Virus record (IMG/VR): IMGVR_UViG_3300047560_001181
Coordinates: 1-20,259 of that record
DNA: 20,259 nt
Origin: a virus
Direction: 5' to 3' (one strand)
The translations under genes were made by a program, and so were the position numbers. How positions within the stretch are numbered: position 1 is the first letter of the stretch; each line of letters begins with the position of its first letter. Positions 87 to 9,886 of this stretch are shown here, piece after piece. The notes under the pieces were generated by a model that ran no database searches, was not told the DNA's origin, and saw only the letters and a list, made by a program, of their open reading frames with translations.

Positions 87-2261
87 TTAAGCGATGCCTG
101 CGTCTGCAAGGCGTTTACGTAGGGATTGCAGTTCTGCAATGATGTTAGCAATGAACTCAGCAGAGCCGTATTCCATTGCTTGCATTTGTTCACCATCTTT
201 TTCACCAACCACAGAGTTAGGAGAAACTTCCTGCACTTCGTGAGCAATGAAACCAACACCTTTAGAACCATCGGCTTTCCAGCTCCAAGTCTTAGGCTTG
301 AGTGCATCAATGAATGCACCTGAACCAGTCAAAGGCTGCGGATTGTCTTTAAGTCGATAGTCGGAGGAGGTGTTGTAAGCTGTTGCTGATGTTGTAAATG
401 TGATAGTCCCGACAACTTGCTCAGAATAAGTGTCTGCAAAAAGCATTGCATATTGTGTATATGCGTTTGCGTTTGCTGAAACCATCAAACCATACTGAGA
501 AGAGCTATTGGTATATGGGTTAATTACTTGTCTGTATTTATTGTTAAATGCCGAGATTGTGCTCGTAGTCCCCACTAACAGGTTACCAGAGCTATCAATA
601 CGGGCGCGTTCTGTGTCTGCTGTGCCAAATGCGACATACCCATTAGAGCGACCATCGGCGCGAATAAATTGGTAGCCAGTATTGTAGTCGCCTCCAAAAT
701 AAAATTGTGAGTAGCCAAGCGTAGTATCGTTAATTGACCAAATGGACGCAAAAGTCCCCGAGTTAATTGTCATTCGGACAGCGGAACTGCCGCTTGTGGT
801 GCCAAGTTTTAAGTTCCCACTAGCATCAAGCGTCATTGCTTGAGTGAAGCTGATGGCGTCACCTGCTGTGCCGGAGGCTGCGTTAAACCACTTATGTGCA
901 CCATCTTGAGAATAATAGTTTGCTGCATCTGATGCCTTATAAATAAAGTTCCCAGACGTGTTTACATAGCAGTTATATCCAAGGTTCGGCTGACCAGCAC
1001 CACCAGACCACAAAGCAGTGCGAGTTCCAATATCAAGCGCTTTGTTTGCGCTATACCAAGCACTCGGCGTAACTCCCAGTCCCAGGTTGCCGGAGGTATC
1101 AAAATATCCACGGATACTTCCGTTGGTGATAATCGCAAACCCGTAATTGTTGAGCGTACCTACAACTGCTTCGCCGCCAGTATTTCCCAAATAAGATTGC
1201 TGCCCCGCAGAAGAAGTTGTACGAATACCGTTGTTAGTGGTAACGCTTACATCCACTTTATAGGTGGGCGAACTTGTCCCAATACCCAGGTTACCGGAGG
1301 AGTCCCAAGTCAATACGGATGTGCCAACGCTGCTATATGAAGCGCCGTAGCCAAGAGACCACGTTGATCCAGCATTGATAAGTTGGCCAAAATATGAACC
1401 GCCAGATGCGCCAAATGCCGCCATCAACTGCGATGCGCTACTTGTTGCGCCAGTCCCGTTGAAATATGCAGTTCCCCGCACATCCAATTTACCTAAAGGC
1501 GAACTTGCCCCAATACCCAACCCTGTGCTGGTCAGGCGCATGGATTCGGAGCCGTTTTGGAACCAGTTGTGATAACCAGATGCGCCAGAAAAGTAGGTGT
1601 ACGCTGTTTGGGAGTTTGTTAGATCGCGCAGACCAATCTGTCCGTATGAATAGCTTGCGCCGCCGTTGAAGAGTCCAAAGTTGACGCCGGAAGTCGGCGT
1701 TGAATCTGTAAGGTATAGCGCAGGAGCGGTGTTTGATACTTGCAGGCGCGTCCCATCAAACGTAAGCGCAGACCCACTGGTAGCAACTTTAGAGCCGTTT
1801 AAGTACAGTACACCGTTAGCTGTGCCGCCGGAGAGGGTCACCGATCCGCCAGTGGCAAAACCGCCAGCAGTCAAAGTTGTGCCGTCAAAAGTCAGGTTTG
1901 TGCTGTCTTGCAACAAGCCGGAAGTGCCCGCATAAGTCACACGCCCCGAAGTCAGGGCGCTGTCTTTGATAGAACCCGCAGTCAGATATGTGCCATCCCA
2001 AGTCAACGACGAGGACGCTCCGAAGACGCCGTTGTTGTTGAACTGGATCTGAGTGTTCGATCCTGCAACGACGCCCGTACCGCCCTTGCCTGCCAGCACC
2101 TGTACGTTGCCAGAAGCGTCCTTGTAGAACAACTTGCCGTCAAACGCATTTATGGCAAGTTCTACACCACTTGCAGATGTAGTAAGGTTTGCCGCCAAGG
2201 GCACATTACCAGTGGTAGTTGATCCATAGAGCAAAATGGGTGTGTATCCAGTCTGCGACAT
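87..2261 (-). CDS. Tail fibre/spike with C-terminal S74 intramolecular chaperone
   Basis: A 724-aa beta-rich, Gly/Ser/Thr/Asn-rich virion protein, likely a trimeric fibre for host adhesion. Residues 1-60 form a short N-terminal module. The shaft carries repeated turns of the type GNLGIGTSSP (near residues 247, 323, 391, 481 and 557), as in modular phage fibres. The last 92 residues are a Peptidase_S74 / endosialidase-type intramolecular chaperone: SDYRLK places the expected Ser633-Lys638 pair five residues apart, followed by KPKTWSW, GVGFIAHEVQ and a C-terminal helix. In this family the chaperone trimerises the fibre and cuts itself off just before the Ser, which would leave a mature fibre of about 632 aa. 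Start ATG 2261 has AGAGGT upstream. The gene follows the glycosyltransferase cassette. Confidence 0.93.
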   Translation of the reverse strand: MSQTGYTPILLYGSTTTGNVPLAANLTTSASGVELAINAFDGKLFYKDASGNVQVLAGKGGTGVVAGSNTQIQFNNNGVFGASSSLTWDGTYLTAGSIKDSALTSGRVTYAGTSGLLQDSTNLTFDGTTLTAGGFATGGSVTLSGGTANGVLYLNGSKVATSGSALTFDGTRLQVSNTAPALYLTDSTPTSGVNFGLFNGGASYSYGQIGLRDLTNSQTAYTYFSGASGYHNWFQNGSESMRLTSTGLGIGASSPLGKLDVRGTAYFNGTGATSSASQLMAAFGASGGSYFGQLINAGSTWSLGYGASYSSVGTSVLTWDSSGNLGIGTSSPTYKVDVSVTTNNGIRTTSSAGQQSYLGNTGGEAVVGTLNNYGFAIITNGSIRGYFDTSGNLGLGVTPSAWYSANKALDIGTRTALWSGGAGQPNLGYNCYVNTSGNFIYKASDAANYYSQDGAHKWFNAASGTAGDAISFTQAMTLDASGNLKLGTTSGSSAVRMTINSGTFASIWSINDTTLGYSQFYFGGDYNTGYQFIRADGRSNGYVAFGTADTERARIDSSGNLLVGTTSTISAFNNKYRQVINPYTNSSSQYGLMVSANANAYTQYAMLFADTYSEQVVGTITFTTSATAYNTSSDYRLKDNPQPLTGSGAFIDALKPKTWSWKADGSKGVGFIAHEVQEVSPNSVVGEKDGEQMQAMEYGSAEFIANIIAELQSLRKRLADAGIA

Positions 2262-2262
2262 A

Positions 2263-2313
2263 TTAAACCTCTTTTCTTGCTTTTTGATGTCTTACAATCC
2301 AAGCCATTTTCAT
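2263..2313 (-). CDS. Possible 16-residue leader peptide ahead of the S74 fibre
   Basis: The 69-base gap between the GT9-like gene and the fibre holds a 16-codon ORF reading MKMAWIVRHQKARKEV. It has an SD-like TTGAGGAAG just before its ATG, and its TAA lies one base before the fibre ATG. An imperfect hairpin (CAATCC with GGATTG outside, AAGC with GCTT inside) puts the SD in a bulge and the ATG in the loop. It could be a translational-coupling leader, or it could be chance: this length is easily met at random. Confidence 0.22.
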   Translation of the reverse strand: MKMAWIVRHQKARKEV

Positions 2314-2330
2314 CGCTTCCTCAAGGATTG

Positions 2331-2807
2331 TTAGGTATTAGAAACGATTTCAGCTTCTTTTTCAATTGACAGAACCTCTATCAAAGCGCTGAAAACCTTG
2401 TGCGGATCAACAAACCGCTCACTCTGGTGTTCAACATACTCCCACCATAAAAATTGGTTATCCACCAAAAACGATCTATCCTTTAACAGATTCACATTTT
2501 CAGGGTGACCAAAAATCAAAGGGTCTGAAACTGACCACAAAACGATGCCTTTTTTGCCCTCATCCCACCCCAGGTGTTGGAAGAAGCTGTCGCAAGAAAT
2601 CCATGTTTTGCACTGCCTCAAAAGAGCGCGAAGCTCCGGCAACGAGAGGTTCTTGCGGAAGTCTGGGACAAGTTGTTCTTCCCCCTCGATCCCAACCTGG
2701 ACGATTGGCTCGTTGATCAAGGGGATCAGTTCTTTCCAGAACGGGTAGTTCTTGGGGTTGGTTTTGCCACTCAGGAGCGCTTTTGAGTACGGGGAGATGA
2801 TGATCAT
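2331..2807 (-). CDS. GT9-like glycosyltransferase, C-terminal (donor-binding) half
   Basis: A 158-aa protein resembling only the C-terminal Rossmann half of a GT-B, family 9 (heptosyltransferase-like) enzyme. It opens with MIIISPYSKA and NPKNYPFWKEL, the usual start of that half, then LSLPELRALL, a WISCDSFFQHLG segment (the conserved Asp-Ser followed by His), and SVSDPLIFGHPENVNL, which fits the nucleotide-sugar loop. The matching N-terminal half appears to be the last ~78 residues of the upstream gene, and the two genes share an ATGA overlap, so they are probably translationally coupled and may act as a two-chain enzyme. Alternatives are a recent one-base frameshift that split a fused gene, or a degenerate enzyme. 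Donor sugar and acceptor are unknown; fibre modification is inferred from context. Confidence 0.72.
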   Translation of the reverse strand: MIIISPYSKALLSGKTNPKNYPFWKELIPLINEPIVQVGIEGEEQLVPDFRKNLSLPELRALLRQCKTWISCDSFFQHLGWDEGKKGIVLWSVSDPLIFGHPENVNLLKDRSFLVDNQFLWWEYVEHQSERFVDPHKVFSALIEVLSIEKEAEIVSNT

Positions 2808-3772
2808 AGGTATAGCTTCCGAAAAGCGCTCTCAATGCTGTCTTTCCACTTCCAGCGGTCCATCTTGGCATAGATGCTGTAAGGCTCAATGTCGCCAAAC
2901 AACTCTCTTGCCTCTGCAATCGACCTGCCCGGGATGATCTCTGGGTAGCAACTGAACACCTCTGGGTTCTTTATTTCCGGCAAAACATGGCTGAAAACCA
3001 CATGGTCACCCATGCCGCAGTTCAAAACAACAATCGTCTTGTCTCGGTACTCCAAGATGTTCTTGAATATCCGCTCATCATGGTGGTACATCTCAACGCT
3101 GGTTTCGCTTCGGATGCCGCCTGAGGGGCTTTTCAGGTGCCATGTGACCGCATTGGGGATCACCCACAGCGCATAGCCTTTCTGGTGCAATCCATAGGTG
3201 AAAAGAGTCTCCTCCCGATGCGCAACCCTGGATAAGCCCAAATTGTAGTCATGAATGCCAGCGCGGTACAAAAACGAACAATGCAGGTGCTGGACCTGCT
3301 TGGGGTGTTTGATGGTTCCCCACTGGATGTTTGGCTCGTCCCAGATGTCATCAATACGCCCTGTAGGCTCTTTTTCAAGCTCCTCGAAGGGTGGCGTCAG
3401 GATTGAGCCTCCAACGGCTCCTACGCCCGTTCCTGCGTATTCCAGCAGGTTTTCCAAGACGTTGCTCTCGGGGACAGCATCATCGTCCACCCGCCACACC
3501 CACTCATACCCCATGTTGTTGGCGGTTTGGTGGCTGTAGTGCTGACCCTTTTTGGCGGCGTAGCACCACTCCCAGGGGATACCCTTGGCATCCAGCATGT
3601 AGAAGATGCGCAGATACATGGGGTCTTGGCGCAGATCTTGCGGCTCATCGTTGTCATCAAAAACGACAATCTTGTCCACAGGGCGGCTTTGGTTGGCAAC
3701 TGCCATCAGCGCCATAGGCAGAGTTGTTCGGTAGCGACCGCGGGTAGCGATGGAGCAAAGAACCTTCTTCAT
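2804..3772 (-). CDS. GT2-like glycosyltransferase fused to a GT9-like N-terminal half
   Basis: A 322-aa protein taken from ATG 3772, which overlaps the upstream TGA as ATGA; a TTG four codons earlier is in frame but has no better ribosome site. Residues 1-~240 look like a GT-A (GT2-type) glycosyltransferase: an opening beta strand (KKVLCSIATRGR), VDDDA at 95-99 as the likely metal/nucleotide-sugar motif, GSIL at 122-125, and HREET at 185-189 in the usual position of the catalytic acid. From ~245 a second domain starts with KTIVVLNCGMGDHVVFSHVL, recalling the N-terminal acceptor half of GT9 enzymes, and stops abruptly after FRKLYL where the donor half would begin. That half is the next gene. 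A role in modifying the phage's own fibre is inferred. Confidence 0.8.
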   Translation of the reverse strand: MKKVLCSIATRGRYRTTLPMALMAVANQSRPVDKIVVFDDNDEPQDLRQDPMYLRIFYMLDAKGIPWEWCYAAKKGQHYSHQTANNMGYEWVWRVDDDAVPESNVLENLLEYAGTGVGAVGGSILTPPFEELEKEPTGRIDDIWDEPNIQWGTIKHPKQVQHLHCSFLYRAGIHDYNLGLSRVAHREETLFTYGLHQKGYALWVIPNAVTWHLKSPSGGIRSETSVEMYHHDERIFKNILEYRDKTIVVLNCGMGDHVVFSHVLPEIKNPEVFSCYPEIIPGRSIAEARELFGDIEPYSIYAKMDRWKWKDSIESAFRKLYL

Positions 3773-5223
3773 GACCGCACCCAAATCTCATGGATCATCG
3801 GGATGGGGCGCATGTTGATGAGACTGCCGTTTGCATCAAAATCCCATGCATATATCTGCTGTCGGTCCTTGAGCTTGAAGTCAAACCCTTTGAGCTTGTT
3901 CTCCATGATTTCAATGCCCTGATACTTGGGGTTCATCTCAGTGTGCATCTCCATGGCAATGGTAGAAACACGCTTCATGTCCTCTTGCGAGGCGTTGATT
4001 AAGATGTCGTACTCAGACCCCTCGCAGTCAATCTTTAGGAACACATCGTCCCCTTCAACCATCTCCAAAAGGTCATGCAATGTGACAGAAGAAACTTCTT
4101 CGGAGCTTTCTGACTGCACATACAGGCTGTTGTGACCGCTCTTGTCGTTGATTCCGATGTCCACACTCTTGCCGGCAACATCAAGGACCACAGCCTGCTC
4201 TGCGTGAATAACGTCTTCCAGCTTGGCTCGTTGAATGTTCTCAACCAGCTTTGAGTAGGTGGTTGACACAGGCTCCACGCAGACAACCTTGGAGGCTCCA
4301 AGAGTTGCCGCAAAGAGGGAGAAAGTGCCAATGTTTGCCCCGATGTCGATTGCCGCTTTGCCTTTGATGTCTTCAGGGGTCAAGTGATAGATGTTGCCAG
4401 CCACCACCTCGTCATAAAGTTCCTTGGCTTCTGTGCCACCATCGCAGATCCAAGCCAAGTCTTCTTTGGCAAACTCAATAGCGTTTTTTTGCATCGCTTT
4501 TTCTCCCCATGACGAGTTGTATTTCTTCGCAAGCTTCAACTCATTGCGAACAAAAATCTCGTTCCAATTTTTCACCAATTCTTCATTGTGAACAGTCCCC
4601 TCACCCTCATGGTAGATTGGGAATGATCCGGTGAAAATTTCTCCGTTATACACTTTAGGCGCCACCTGTTTGACCAAAAATCCAGCAAGCTTTGCCTCTA
4701 CACAGAACTCAACGTCTTCGCCACTTCCGACGCCGTATTCCTCATTCAAAAAGCCTATTTTCTCAAAAACCTTTCGATGGATCATTGCGCAAAAAAAGAC
4801 GGCAAAGTCAGAGTTTGCCGCATCGCTTCTTTGAACAACAGGTGCAGAGATACCAACATTCTCGTCAGAAAACATTGAATCCATCATTTCAAGCCACTGG
4901 TTTTTTGTTTGATCAAGCAACACAGTATCGTTGTTGAGCAAGACAATTTTGTCGCATGTGCTTTCTTTGATGCCGGCATTGGTTGCCGCAGCATAGCCCA
5001 TGGGCGCATCATTCCAAACAACTTTCAAGTTCTTGCCAAAACCGATTGCATCAAATTGATTTTTTAGACCATTCAAATACCAATATGAATTATCAGTACA
5101 TCCATTGGCGCTGATGATCAACTCAACATCAGCCATATCCGTCCATTTGAAAATGGAATCAATGCATGGCTTGAGGTACTTGTCGCAGTTGTTGTAGGTG
5201 GGAATGACAATGCTGTACTTCAT
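3769..5223 (-). CDS. Bifunctional GT2 glycosyltransferase - FkbM-type methyltransferase
   Basis: A 484-aa two-domain enzyme. Residues 1-~235 are a GT2 (GT-A fold) glycosyltransferase: it begins YSIVIPTYNNCD, has SANGCTDNS (39-47), NAPMGY-like WNDAPMGYAAATNAG (70-84), LLNNDT at 95-100 as the metal-binding motif, and GVGSGEDVEFC at 164-174, the usual acceptor-side acidic motif. Residues ~265-470 are an FkbM-type SAM-dependent methyltransferase: AIDIGANIGTFSLFAA (291-306, SAM loop), VCVEP (314-318) and LKIDCEGSEYDIL (396-408), the family signature. FkbM enzymes often O-methylate sugars, so the fusion could add a sugar and cap it with a methyl group. The start ATG overlaps the stop of the collagen-like fibre gene (TGATG), implying translational coupling, so the fibre is a plausible acceptor (inference). 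It overlaps the next gene by ATGA. Confidence 0.9.
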   Translation of the reverse strand: MKYSIVIPTYNNCDKYLKPCIDSIFKWTDMADVELIISANGCTDNSYWYLNGLKNQFDAIGFGKNLKVVWNDAPMGYAAATNAGIKESTCDKIVLLNNDTVLLDQTKNQWLEMMDSMFSDENVGISAPVVQRSDAANSDFAVFFCAMIHRKVFEKIGFLNEEYGVGSGEDVEFCVEAKLAGFLVKQVAPKVYNGEIFTGSFPIYHEGEGTVHNEELVKNWNEIFVRNELKLAKKYNSSWGEKAMQKNAIEFAKEDLAWICDGGTEAKELYDEVVAGNIYHLTPEDIKGKAAIDIGANIGTFSLFAATLGASKVVCVEPVSTTYSKLVENIQRAKLEDVIHAEQAVVLDVAGKSVDIGINDKSGHNSLYVQSESSEEVSSVTLHDLLEMVEGDDVFLKIDCEGSEYDILINASQEDMKRVSTIAMEMHTEMNPKYQGIEIMENKLKGFDFKLKDRQQIYAWDFDANGSLINMRPIPMIHEIWVRS

Positions 5224-6713
5224 CAGAAAGCACCCCCATTGACGCCACCTGTTATTGAGTTTGTCGTTCCATTGTAGGTCAGTTCAGTGTTCACATAAAC
5301 AGCTTGACTGCCGGATGTCCCGGTGACAAATGTCAAATAAGTTGATGCCGATGAGTTTGTGCTGATGGTGACAGTTGTCGGAGGGGCGCCAGAAAATCCA
5401 CTGATTCCCGAGTAGCCTGAAATTCCCGAGTAGCCACTGATGCCAGACGAGCCGGAGTAACCTGAAATACCCGAATAACCACTGATTCCGGAATAACCAC
5501 TGATGCCAGAATACCCCGAAATGCCAGAATAACCACTGATGCCGGAGCTGCCCGAATAACCCGAAACGCCAGAATAGCCGGAGGTTCCAGAGTATCCCGA
5601 ATAGCCGCTTGTTCCTGAGTACCCAGAGTATCCACTTGTCCCCGAATAGCCTGAATAGCCACTGGTTCCAGAGTAGCCACTGATGCCGGAGTAGCCGGAA
5701 ATGCCGGAGTAGCCAGAGATACCCGAAGTCCCAGAGTAGCCCGATGTGCCAGAGTACCCCGAAAAGCCCGATGTCCCGCTGTAGCCAGAGGTGCCGCTGT
5801 AGCCAGAGAAGCCAGACGTTCCTGACGTACCAGAATAGCCCGAATACCCCGATACGCCTGATGTTCCGCTTGTGCCGCTGTATCCGGAGATACCAGAGGT
5901 TCCCGAGTAGCCAGAGATGCCTGAGAAGCCCGAGATGCCGGAAGTACCAGAGTAGCCCGAGAATCCAGAAGTGCCAGAGAATCCTGATGTACCAGACGCA
6001 CCAAGGTTGTTGGTCCAAGAACCAGCAACGTAGCCCTCAAACTGGCTCAGCTCAGAGTTGTATCGGAAGGCGCCATTCGGACCAACAGTTCGCTGACCTG
6101 TCGTTCCTGACGGCATCGTTACAGAGCCAGTACCGGGCAGAACAGGGTTAGTAGCCAGACCAATTGTGGGAGGACCGCTGATGCCGGTTGCGTTTGAGAC
6201 CGAAGTCTGGTTCGCCACACCCTGCAAATAAGTCGAGGAGACAGCTCCGCCGCTTGTCAAAGTCAAAAGACCATTGCCGCTTGCGTTGGCAAAGTTCAGG
6301 ATCTGACCGCTCAGACCAATCGTGGGGTTGCCAGAGATGCCAGTGCCATTTGCAATCGTTAAACCCGTCCCAGTGACCTGAATAGAGCGGTTGACTACCG
6401 TGCTACCAGCGTCCTTCACAATGAAGCCTGTAGAGGCTGTATTGAGGCTTGCCGCGGCTCCCGTCAGGGCAAGGTTGATCGTTGACTGAGGACCACCATC
6501 AGTGACACTGATTCCAGGCTGAGCAGACAGGCTTCGGGAGTTGGGGAGCGTAGGCTCCTGGTTCACCGTGATGAAGGTCTGTTGCAGGTTCGGAGAGTTG
6601 GAAATAGCCGCCGTGGTCGTTCTCACGGTGATGCCGTTTTGAACAACCGGAACTTGCTCCGTCCCGGTCAAGGGAAGGGCGGCAGGCAGTTGGGTAATCT
6701 GTACGTTTGGCAT
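5223..6713 (-). CDS. Collagen-like tail fibre with Gly-X-Ser triplets
   Basis: A 496-aa virion fibre protein. The N-terminus (residues 9-35) has [17 protein letters not shown], shared with the C1q-like protein at 9886-10470 and probably an anchor to the particle. Residues 60-235 are beta-rich with two GISGxPTIGL repeats (125-134 and 177-186). Residues 240-443 are 68 uninterrupted S-G-X triplets, that is Gly-X-Ser with X mostly Tyr, Thr or Ile. This fits a collagen-like trimeric rod, but with almost no proline and many hydroxyl side chains. The last 53 residues ([11 protein letters not shown]..., [13 protein letters not shown]) resemble a module that in other fibres continues into a longer C-terminal part. 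Here the stop is shared with the next gene's start. It probably forms part of the host-contacting fibre. Confidence 0.88.
5385..5996 (-). repeat. In-frame 9-base repeat tract encoding 68 SGx triplets
   Basis: About 612 bases of near-tandem 9-mers of the kind TCTGGCTAY / TCCGGCATC, all in frame with the collagen-like fibre. Codons for Ser, Gly and the variable residue differ from unit to unit, so the array is not a recent perfect expansion, but an 18-base period (SGI-SGY and SGT-SGY) is locally strong near 5400-5560. Such tracts vary in length by slippage or recombination, so rod length may differ between relatives. Confidence 0.9.
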
Positions 6714-7081
6714 CAGTCAGGTGTCGGTGTAGGGGTCGGAGTGCTTTTAATGCCATCCAAATTGCCATTATTTTCCGGCGTTTCTGTGTTGCCTTCGGTG
6801 GAAAGCGTAAAACCTCCTTGATCTTGGGTGGCAGTCACATCATTGGGGTTGACTGCAACGCTCACATCAGGACGGGGGAAGCGCAGGTTGATACGCTCAG
6901 TCTTGCGCGCCGGCAAGCGATATGGATCCTTCTCGTCAGCGCATCCGCGGGCTTCGCATACCCGCAACCCCGGAAAGTTGTGATCCGGAATCAGTGTTGA
7001 GTAGGGAACCTTCATCTTGCACCGATCGCACACTGCGATGGCGATTTCAGAGTAGCCCAGTGTGTCGAGGAATCGGGGCAT
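6713..7081 (-). CDS. Conserved virion-region protein with a four-cysteine (zinc-ribbon-like) motif
   Basis: A 122-aa protein of unknown function. The N-terminal two thirds hold CDRC (18-21) and CEARGC (42-47), a CxxC...CxxxxC arrangement that could bind zinc, then [13 protein letters not shown] and LRFPRPD, which look like conserved structural text. The C-terminal third is low complexity and ends in a TPTPTPTPD tail. I chose ATG 7081 because it overlaps the stop of the preceding endonuclease gene (TGATG) and has AGGTGG at proper spacing; a GTG three codons upstream is less likely. It lies between the adaptor and fibre genes, so a tail or connector part is plausible. I do not recognise a named family. 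Confidence 0.75.
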
Positions 7082-7758
7082 CACAACCACCTACATTCGG
7101 TTATATGGGCATATTTGGCGCTAGGTTTTCCTTTGCCATAAGCCCAGTATTTTAGAGTTGCCTCTGGTATCCCCATTGCATGAGAAGCAATTTTTGAGCT
7201 TTCATACTGAGTTCCATTGACGATAAATGGCTTGATTTGACCTCTTGCAATTCTAGTCATACGACGAGATTCCATACGTTTTGCAAGATGCTCTGGGGTG
7301 TTTTTTCTTCCTTTCCCAGCGGCGGAAAGTTTTGCTCGAGTTTCTTCAGATGCCAGCATGCCTTTATTGGCTGGAGTATTGCCAATCATCCATGGAGTTT
7401 CTCTTGTTTTGCCTTTGAGTGGACTGACATACTCTTTGCCGCGAGGTTTTGATATTGGAGGCTTACCGCCACCAATAGCAAGGTTCCATCCAATGTTTTC
7501 AGATGAACGAATTTTTCTTTCAAGGTCGTAACAATATTCCTCTGGCGCAAAAATCAAAATTTGTTTGATTAAGTTGTCCCACCCATGTTTTGCAATTGCA
7601 TTTGCAAATTTTGGGTTGTCATGACGATTGTTTTTTTGCGACCCAAAATGACCGTAGTTCCAACGCCTGTTGGCGTTTCTGGCAACACCAATGTATCCCT
7701 CTGTCATAAAGTCAGAGTGGTGTTTTGCTCTGATCCAATAAACAGAGCATTGAGTCAT
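7081..7758 (-). CDS. Free-standing GIY-YIG homing endonuclease
   Basis: A 225-aa protein. Residues 1-95 match a GIY-YIG nuclease: VYWI (6-9) and GYIGVA (21-26) stand for the two name motifs, with Arg27/Arg31 and Glu80 (ERKIR) in catalytic positions and WNLAIGGGKPP closing the domain. Residues ~110-165 contain NUMOD3-like basic segments (GKTRETPW, NKGMLASEETRAKLSAAGKG), and the C-terminus (ESSKIASHAMGIPEATLKYW) is a helix-turn-helix DNA-binding module of the IENR/NUMOD type. Such genes spread between phages by cutting alleles that lack them. The start overlaps the adaptor stop (ATGA) and the stop overlaps the next start, so insertion left flanking genes intact. Its base composition looks more AT-rich than its neighbours. 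No intron is evident around it. Confidence 0.9.
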   Translation of the reverse strand: MTQCSVYWIRAKHHSDFMTEGYIGVARNANRRWNYGHFGSQKNNRHDNPKFANAIAKHGWDNLIKQILIFAPEEYCYDLERKIRSSENIGWNLAIGGGKPPISKPRGKEYVSPLKGKTRETPWMIGNTPANKGMLASEETRAKLSAAGKGRKNTPEHLAKRMESRRMTRIARGQIKPFIVNGTQYESSKIASHAMGIPEATLKYWAYGKGKPSAKYAHITECRWL

Positions 7759-8837: not shown

Positions 8838-9347
8838 TTAGATCACCGAAAAACTGTTGTTTTTTGAGATGTTTTCTTTGCCACGCAATACACGCATATT
8901 GTTGGGCGTGTGCAAGCCAGAGACCAATTCGCCTTGAAGAGGAATTACATGATCAACATGCCAAGGCTCTTTGTTTTCACGGGTCAGCATTGCCGCTACA
9001 GAGTACAGGCATTTAATTTTCAGCTTGTCAAAATCAGTAAGCCATCCAGGAGTTCGTTGTAATTTTAAGGCTCTACGTTTTGCGGTAGCGGCAGCAGCAA
9101 ATTCTGGTCGTAACTTTTGTCTTTCAAGCTGAAGTTTTTTGGATTTTTCATGGTCTGCATAATAGTACGCGATGGCTTGGGCGCGTCTTTTATCTGCATT
9201 TTTTTGATACTCTGCGGCATAGTCCCGCTTCATGTCCGAGCTTTTCCGCTTGTGATCTCGACTGCAAAACCTTGCATGCGATCTTTTGTGGTCGATATTT
9301 GTGCCACACAACTCGCAGGTCCTGTTTTTGTCGCCGCTAGTTCTCAT
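8838..9347 (-). CDS. Free-standing HNH homing endonuclease
   Basis: A 169-aa basic protein. An N-terminal zinc-finger-like motif (CELCG at 11-15, then C28 and H32) precedes a Lys/Arg-rich helical stretch with AAATAKRRALKLQRTPGW. The C-terminal 41 residues are a clear HNH core: WHVDHVIPLQG (129-139), VSGLHTPNNMRV and ENISKNNSF, giving the Asp-His, His-Asn and Asn/Lys-Asn positions. I start at ATG 9347, which shares a base with the previous stop (TAATG) and has GGAG seven bases upstream; a longer frame reaching to 9458 lies inside the previous gene and is likely spurious. It is a selfish mobile gene inserted between two virion genes without harming them. Confidence 0.9.
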   Translation of the reverse strand: MRTSGDKNRTCELCGTNIDHKRSHARFCSRDHKRKSSDMKRDYAAEYQKNADKRRAQAIAYYYADHEKSKKLQLERQKLRPEFAAAATAKRRALKLQRTPGWLTDFDKLKIKCLYSVAAMLTRENKEPWHVDHVIPLQGELVSGLHTPNNMRVLRGKENISKNNSFSVI

Positions 9348-9886
9348 TACCATACTCCGCCATCTGCGCAATGCCAACGCTTTAACGAGGCTGCTTTTCG
9401 TGTGGGCCGGCCTTTTTCGTCTTTCATGGGTCCGGGCATGCCACTCATTCTTGCACAAAAACTATCGTGCCGAGGCCCTTTTTCCTGTGGAGCCTGTAAG
9501 TTACTGCCAGTTGCGCGATTAAATTTTTTGCGACCTTTTGCAGTCAGTCCAGCACCTTTTTCAACCGACAACTTCTCTCCGCGGCCCACCGCCAAGGACA
9601 CGCCGCCCTTCTTCATTTTGGCGGTTTTTGCTGACTCTCGGAAGGCTTGGGCGGTAGGAGCACCTTTGCTACCCGGCTTGCGCATCTTTTCACCAGAGCC
9701 TTCAGCGATTCTTTCGCGTTTTGCATGAATGTTGGCATACAGACCGCCTTCCTTGAATTTCTTGCCCTCATCGGCTCGAGCGAACTCTTTGCCGACCTTT
9801 TGAGGGATACCGACCTTCTTGGCAAACCCAGGATTGTGGGCTACCGCTTCCATCAAACGATGCTGAGAAGGTGATTTGCTAGGCAT
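9347..9886 (-). CDS. Basic conserved phage protein (DUF6321-like C-terminus)
   Basis: A 179-aa, very Lys/Arg-rich protein of unknown function. The N-terminus (PSKSPSQHRLMEAVAHNPGF, then PQKVGKEF) is a motif I remember from many aquatic phages. A middle segment has FKEGGLYANIH and MKKGGVSL, the KxGG motif found in several genes of this window. The C-terminal part (AGLTAKGRKKFNRATGSNLQ, FCARMSGMPGPMKDEKGRPT, RKAASLKRWHC) is strongly conserved-looking and recalls DUF6321, a name from memory and not checked. Start: two adjacent ATGs at 9889 and 9886. I favour 9886 because AGGTGG is better spaced; either overlaps the previous TGA. The strong positive charge could mean nucleic-acid contact inside the capsid (inference). 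Confidence 0.8.
   Translation of the reverse strand: MPSKSPSQHRLMEAVAHNPGFAKKVGIPQKVGKEFARADEGKKFKEGGLYANIHAKRERIAEGSGEKMRKPGSKGAPTAQAFRESAKTAKMKKGGVSLAVGRGEKLSVEKGAGLTAKGRKKFNRATGSNLQAPQEKGPRHDSFCARMSGMPGPMKDEKGRPTRKAASLKRWHCADGGVW

Follow-up and report, generated by a model that had tools for sequence, protein, structure and literature searches.

A phage enzyme cassette paired with Gly-X-Ser collagen-like fibres, a candidate system for fibre glycosylation and methylation

What do three overlapping enzyme genes modify when they lie between two fibre genes of a virus? The question is raised by the window analysed here, an IMG/VR virus record of 20,259 bases, in which a late module on the minus strand runs in the order portal, capsid, SU10-type adaptor, collagen-like fibre, three enzymes and S74 fibre (Table 1). 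The fibre gene and the genes for GT2-FkbM, GT2-GT9N and GT9C form one overlapping operon. A preliminary description of this DNA had placed three overlapping genes between two fibre genes, and its gene order, overlaps and motifs were all confirmed, as was its claim that the first enzyme gene begins on the stop of the fibre, the two being joined by a TGATG overlap. A consensus scan of positions 1900-7200 found no minus-strand promoter-like sites; the absence of internal ones fits a single transcript, but proves little. Two further minus-strand ORFs of the late module (7081-7758 and 8838-9458) resemble homing-type endonucleases by eye (GIY-YIG-like, HNH-like), and one of them sits just upstream of the fibre region.

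Table 1 Features of the fibre and enzyme region, in window coordinates
Feature	Position	Strand	Evidence
Downstream fibre with C-terminal S74 chaperone domain	87..2261 (2261-87)	-	Pfam Peptidase_S74 5.8e-11
Enzyme 3: GT9 (heptosyltransferase-like) C-half	2331..2807	-	Pfam; PDB profile search to heptosyltransferase I
ATGA stop-start overlap, enzymes 2/3, dividing the GT9 enzyme into halves	2804..2807	-	Direct sequence reading; junction listing across relatives
Enzyme 2: GT2 domain, then short GT9-like N-half	2804..3772	-	67-sequence alignment; Pfam GT2 7e-6
ATGA overlap, enzymes 1/2	3769..3772	-	Direct sequence reading
Enzyme 1: GT2 (~residues 1-205) and FkbM methyltransferase (~residues 293-432)	3769..5223	-	Pfam; NCBIfam; AlphaFold pLDDT 83.3
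TGATG stop-start overlap, fibre/enzyme 1	5221..5225	-	Direct sequence reading
Collagen-like fibre, putative acceptor, 496 aa	5223..6713 (6713-5223)	-	ORF list; Pfam Collagen 2.3e-29, 101 bits; triplet count
69-triplet repeat, fibre residues 238-444	5382..6002	-	Residue positions converted to window coordinates

The fibre has the long uninterrupted Gly-X-Y repeat of a collagen-like protein. Its 69 contiguous triplets comprise 68 Gly-X-Ser and a final GAP, with X being Tyr (27), Thr (16), Ile (14), Phe (6), Val (2), Ser (2) or Ala (1), in agreement with the 68 triplets and the prevalence of Tyr, Thr and Ile reported earlier. The more than 100 clustered hydroxyls per chain also held, since 113 were counted (68 repeat Ser plus 45 Tyr, Thr or Ser at the X site), while the description of the repeat as free of proline has to be corrected for the single Pro of the terminal GAP. 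Because Pro is nearly absent, it is doubtful that the predicted triple helix would be stable without modification.

Enzymes 1 and 2 both score above the Pfam cut-off for GT2, carry the invariant motifs NND or DDD and have GT-A enzymes as neighbours in PDB. In enzyme 1 the Pfam scores were 8.5e-16 for GT2 and 1.2e-12 for the FkbM methyltransferase, and the latter belongs to NCBIfam TIGR01444 with 90.5 bits (cut-off 37.7). The probable start of enzyme 2 is the ATG at 3772-3770 rather than the TTG at 3784, because the resulting 322 aa match most homologues (321-325 aa); invariant in the alignment of 67 sequences are DDD and REET in its GT2 domain and G-D-H in the GT9-like N-half, a half assigned to GT9 solely from its position, this motif and fused relatives. 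Enzyme 3 reached 16.7 bits with the GT9 Pfam model, under the cut-off of 22, which is exceeded by the C-half of one homologue (L006, 24.6 bits) and of the fused P0003; a profile of the enzyme 3 family matched E. coli-type heptosyltransferase I in PDB (1.6e-4). Comparison of the window with its relative L003 gave a dN well below dS for enzyme 1 (0.285 and 2.28) and enzyme 2 (0.065 and 1.01), showing that both are under selection preserving the protein sequence. The AlphaFold model of a natural fusion of enzymes 2 and 3 (L195; pLDDT 89.5, pTM 0.80) had polypeptide O-GalNAc transferases, TarP and RmlT among its top PDB neighbours. This fold likeness may be a weak pointer to a protein acceptor, weak because many GT-A enzymes score alike.

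The cassette has a variable architecture. Most relatives retain the GT2 of enzyme 1 and have the FkbM domain replaced by another, unrelated SAM methyltransferase, so that FkbM was rejected as a fixed part of the cassette; in the group of phage P19250A the methyltransferase is a stand-alone protein. Nearly every copy has a methyltransferase, either FkbM or its unrelated counterpart. In almost all nonredundant relatives the GT9 enzyme is interrupted at the identical ATGA stop-start, a recurrence that rejects an assembly error. A programmed frameshift was discarded too, as the ATGA is conserved while the preceding codons vary and share no common slippery heptamer; stop-start coupling fits better. 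Fused forms exist as well: L195 and L420 have GT2b joined to both GT9 halves, and single ORFs of 766 aa (L406, GT2a-GT2b-GT9N-GT9C) and 773 aa (L424, GT2a-MTase-GT2b-GT9N) each have a long GYS collagen in their cluster. Since such fusions exist, the parts of the cassette probably work together.

We have surveyed the association of cassette and fibre by enzyme, by fibre and by lineage. Among viral contigs, 328 relatives of enzyme 2 were detected; 80 of these were kept, and removal of near-copies left 44 nonredundant cassettes, the window among them. A collagen-like ORF was found within 2.5 kb of the cassette in 40 of the 44, the remaining four being short contigs. It lay upstream in 34 of the 36 cassettes whose contig extends 1 kb or more on that side, versus 21 of 34 downstream. 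The triplets of these collagens (n=5,804) end in Ser in 83.5% of cases and only 1.9% contain Pro. Among the four short contigs, one alone (L059) extends 2.8 kb upstream; there the cassette follows an S74-type fibre and no GXS repeat occurs. Conversely, pattern scans returned at least 117 collagen stretches of the Gly-Tyr-Ser type and at least 120 of the Gly-Pro-Thr type. Among the matches listed, the cassette accompanied 44 of 117 GYS-type and 0 of 120 GPT-type stretches (Fisher p = 2e-16), a contrast and not an estimate of frequency, as certain stretches belong to the same record and phages of different kinds may be the source of the two classes. When whole records were searched, again among the matches listed, 16 of 49 GYS records without a cassette in the first stretch proved to contain enzyme 2, against 0 of 50 GPT records. 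Enzyme 2 was absent from the other 33 of the 49, records that are often fragments, and as many GYS collagens are without enzyme 2, modification by the cassette is not obligatory.

To control for lineage, we picked phages of the window's own lineage by their adaptor gene, which is unrelated to fibre and cassette, at an identity of 67% or more and regardless of fibre or enzymes. In the 36 loci with at least 5 kb downstream, GXS collagen and cassette occurred together in 7 and both were missing in 29, with no discordant case. The tree requires at least four concordant changes of fibre and cassette; the independent pairs within this lineage number 3-4 and all agree, too few for significance (sign test p 0.25). 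The cassette is tightly and specifically associated with GXS collagens. Co-occurrence with SGx/GXS-repeat fibres is what the preliminary description had named as a check of its proposal, and the survey gave the opposite of the pattern that would speak against that proposal, namely homologues found mainly away from such fibres, for example beside host LPS-type genes.

Outside viral contigs the cassette is very rare. The 84,980 species of bacteria and archaea searched yielded just four matches, all on phage-like contigs and two of them beside GXS collagens, and a bacterial origin beside LPS genes was rejected on these numbers. Plasmids gave no match. Among isolate phage records enzyme 2 was found in one, the Methylophilaceae siphovirus P19250A (host IMCC19250), where the cassette corresponds to the hypothetical proteins gp24-gp26. 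In the same genome (KX815270.1) gp23 (1,201 aa; L086:7753-11358) is annotated as tail length tape-measure protein, yet it is a Gly-X-Ser-rich collagen-like fibre directly upstream of the cassette. The cassette is a phage gene set, located in nearly all cases by GXS collagen-like fibres and hardly ever seen in genomes of bacteria. It is carried by many uncultured phages, most of them aquatic, and its gene neighbourhood suggests that these phages coat their own fibres with sugar. In the open-licence literature we found no earlier description of the pairing of fibre and cassette.

We moderately favour a dedicated fibre-modification system, which would probably O-glycosylate the repeat Ser and methylate the glycan. 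The earlier proposal of a candidate self-glycosylation and methylation system is supported by the three-way survey, while we infer that the fibre is the acceptor, as well as the residue used, the sugar, the sequence in which the enzymes act and the advantage gained. The four genes would be one late-expressed unit that makes and modifies the collagen-like fibre. Enzyme 1 and enzyme 2+3, the latter a GT2 together with a GT9-like enzyme in the form of two polypeptides, would act in the host cytoplasm, placing a short glycan on side-chain hydroxyls along the Gly-X-Ser rod. The likeliest site would be the third-position Ser, since this residue hardly ever changes and the one before it does; a Tyr in that second position may be an alternative. 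The glycan would then be O-methylated, perhaps as a cap put on by the cassette methyltransferase, and it might substitute for the missing proline or hydroxyproline as stabiliser of the rod, shield the fibre, or both.

The main rivals of this reading are modification of the host surface and transfer of the linked genes as one block. LPS synthesis classically involves GT2 and GT9 enzymes, and the literature commonly reads such phage genes as a change of O-antigen (PMC7029224), so the cassette could alter LPS or another polysaccharide, blocking superinfection or changing the receptor, and its location by the tail fibres, in regions known for hypervariability, would reflect a shared host-interaction module. 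We consider this unlikely, because a single class of fibre is involved rather than tail fibres generally (none of the 120 GPT collagens among the matches listed), 29 phages of the same lineage with other fibres go without the cassette, and homologues are nearly missing from bacterial genomes, where LPS genes would be expected. Caution is in order, if fibre modification is true, against interpreting all phage GT2 and GT9 genes as LPS modification.

Physical linkage of fibre and cassette could also yield co-occurrence without any pairing of enzyme and substrate. Overlapping genes would travel together, and with just 3-4 independent changes counted in one lineage, fibre and enzymes might have been transferred as one DNA block, their association reflecting only linkage and module exchange. 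Nevertheless, this seems very unlikely to us, as the GXS class is maintained despite large differences in fibre length and other domains, the pairing holds in the siphovirus P19250A, in contigs of up to 494 kb and with fused, split or reordered genes, and linkage alone leaves the absence of the cassette from the sampled GPT collagens unexplained. The enzymes could instead act on another virion protein, such as the downstream S74 fibre or a baseplate protein, with the GXS fibre as a mere passenger. A second fibre often comes directly after the cassette, and L059 shows only an S74-type fibre upstream; but the downstream neighbours are more variable (collagen in 21/34) than the upstream GXS collagen (34/36), and we regard this possibility as quite improbable.

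For the proposed fibre glycan, two large relatives suggest a dTDP-6-deoxyhexose as the donor sugar. In one (G069, 494 kb), whose fibre cluster also contains GXS collagens, a gene for dTDP-glucose 4,6-dehydratase lies between GT2a and GT2b-GT9N (439.5 bits, cut-off 365.1), together with RmlD-like and RmlA-like genes that are both under their cut-offs. In the other (G079, 187 kb) RmlA-like and RmlB-like fragments adjoin the cassette. RmlB was not found in the 12 smaller records searched, and host sugar nucleotides would consequently be needed there.

Several known systems resemble parts of the proposed modification. BclA-type exosporium glycoproteins of Bacillus carry oligosaccharides on a collagen-like repeat, as proposed in the window, but they are bacterial spore proteins and not phage fibres, and the BclA repeat is rich in Pro and Thr. 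Anthrose, a sugar of BclA, is a deoxysugar with an O-methyl group (PMC9614988). In mimivirus, the lysyl hydroxylase/glucosyltransferase L230 acts on the collagen-like L71 (PMC9614988), a viral enzyme modifying the collagen-like protein of its own virus, as we propose here. However, L230 hydroxylates and glucosylates Lys, whereas the cassette-linked GXS repeats are nearly free of Lys (0.5% of triplets), and L230/PLOD-type domains (2OG-Fe(II) hydroxylase, PLOD/GT25) were sought in the three window enzymes and are absent. Mycobacteriophage glycosyltransferases decorate capsid and tail-tube subunits at the C-terminus, according to Freeman et al. 2023 as cited in PMC12619734. By this account they share with the cassette, for which the role is proposed from genes alone, the action of phage-encoded glycosyltransferases on virion proteins of the phage itself, but differ in the acceptor, which in the window would be a repetitive collagen-like rod served by a fixed GT2/methyltransferase/GT9 cassette. 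In the cuticle collagen of Riftia glycosylated Thr stands in place of hydroxyproline (Mann et al. 1996, as cited in PMC6953826); going by that citation, a sugar at the triplet position that stabilises the triple helix can replace hydroxyproline, an effect proposed also for the window fibre. Riftia has, though, an animal collagen modified at threonine, while the window fibre has mostly serine, with Tyr, Ile or Phe at position two. In a comparison with GtrAB serotype conversion, in which a GtrB-like enzyme works with the flippase GtrA and a glucosyltransferase of the membrane, the GT2 domain had weak similarity to the GtrB profile, and the contiguous operon held no additional gene.

If fibre modification is true, a common uncultured aquatic phage group gains a defined system of virion glycosylation, the hypothetical proteins gp24-gp26 of P19250A become a testable pathway, and there is a suggestion of how a proline-free collagen-like rod might be stable. 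There would be practical use, too, for a compact enzyme set that adds sugars to so simple a tripeptide repeat. Beyond this, we tentatively raise the possibility, though a doubtful one, that phage collagen-like fibres fall into chemical classes, every class having dedicated modification enzymes. The GT2/methyltransferase/split-GT9 cassette would belong to the proline-free GXS rods, where a methylated deoxysugar, attached to Ser at the third position, would serve in place of hydroxyproline; 2OG-Fe(II) hydroxylases and PLOD-like enzymes would belong to rods containing Pro and Lys.

At L221:2798-4621 and L272:3-1757 (minus strand), near collagen-like fibres with Gly-Gln-Lys triplets, we saw PLOD-like proteins that combine GT25, GT_PLOD and 2OG-Fe(II) oxygenase domains; their make-up resembles that of mimivirus L230. 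Among the loci listed, 2OG-Fe(II) oxygenase genes lay within 3 kb of the collagen in 10 of 94 GPT-type (L204-L323) versus 2 of 112 GYS-type loci (L087-L203), a contrast that is biased since the model was built from GPT-locus matches. Within the GPT set the link of these oxygenases to Lys-rich repeats was weak (p 0.026). Furthermore, three relatives of the P19250A group (L064, L075 and L082) have a 2OG-Fe(II) oxygenase-like ORF at ~0.57 kb from the GXS collagen.
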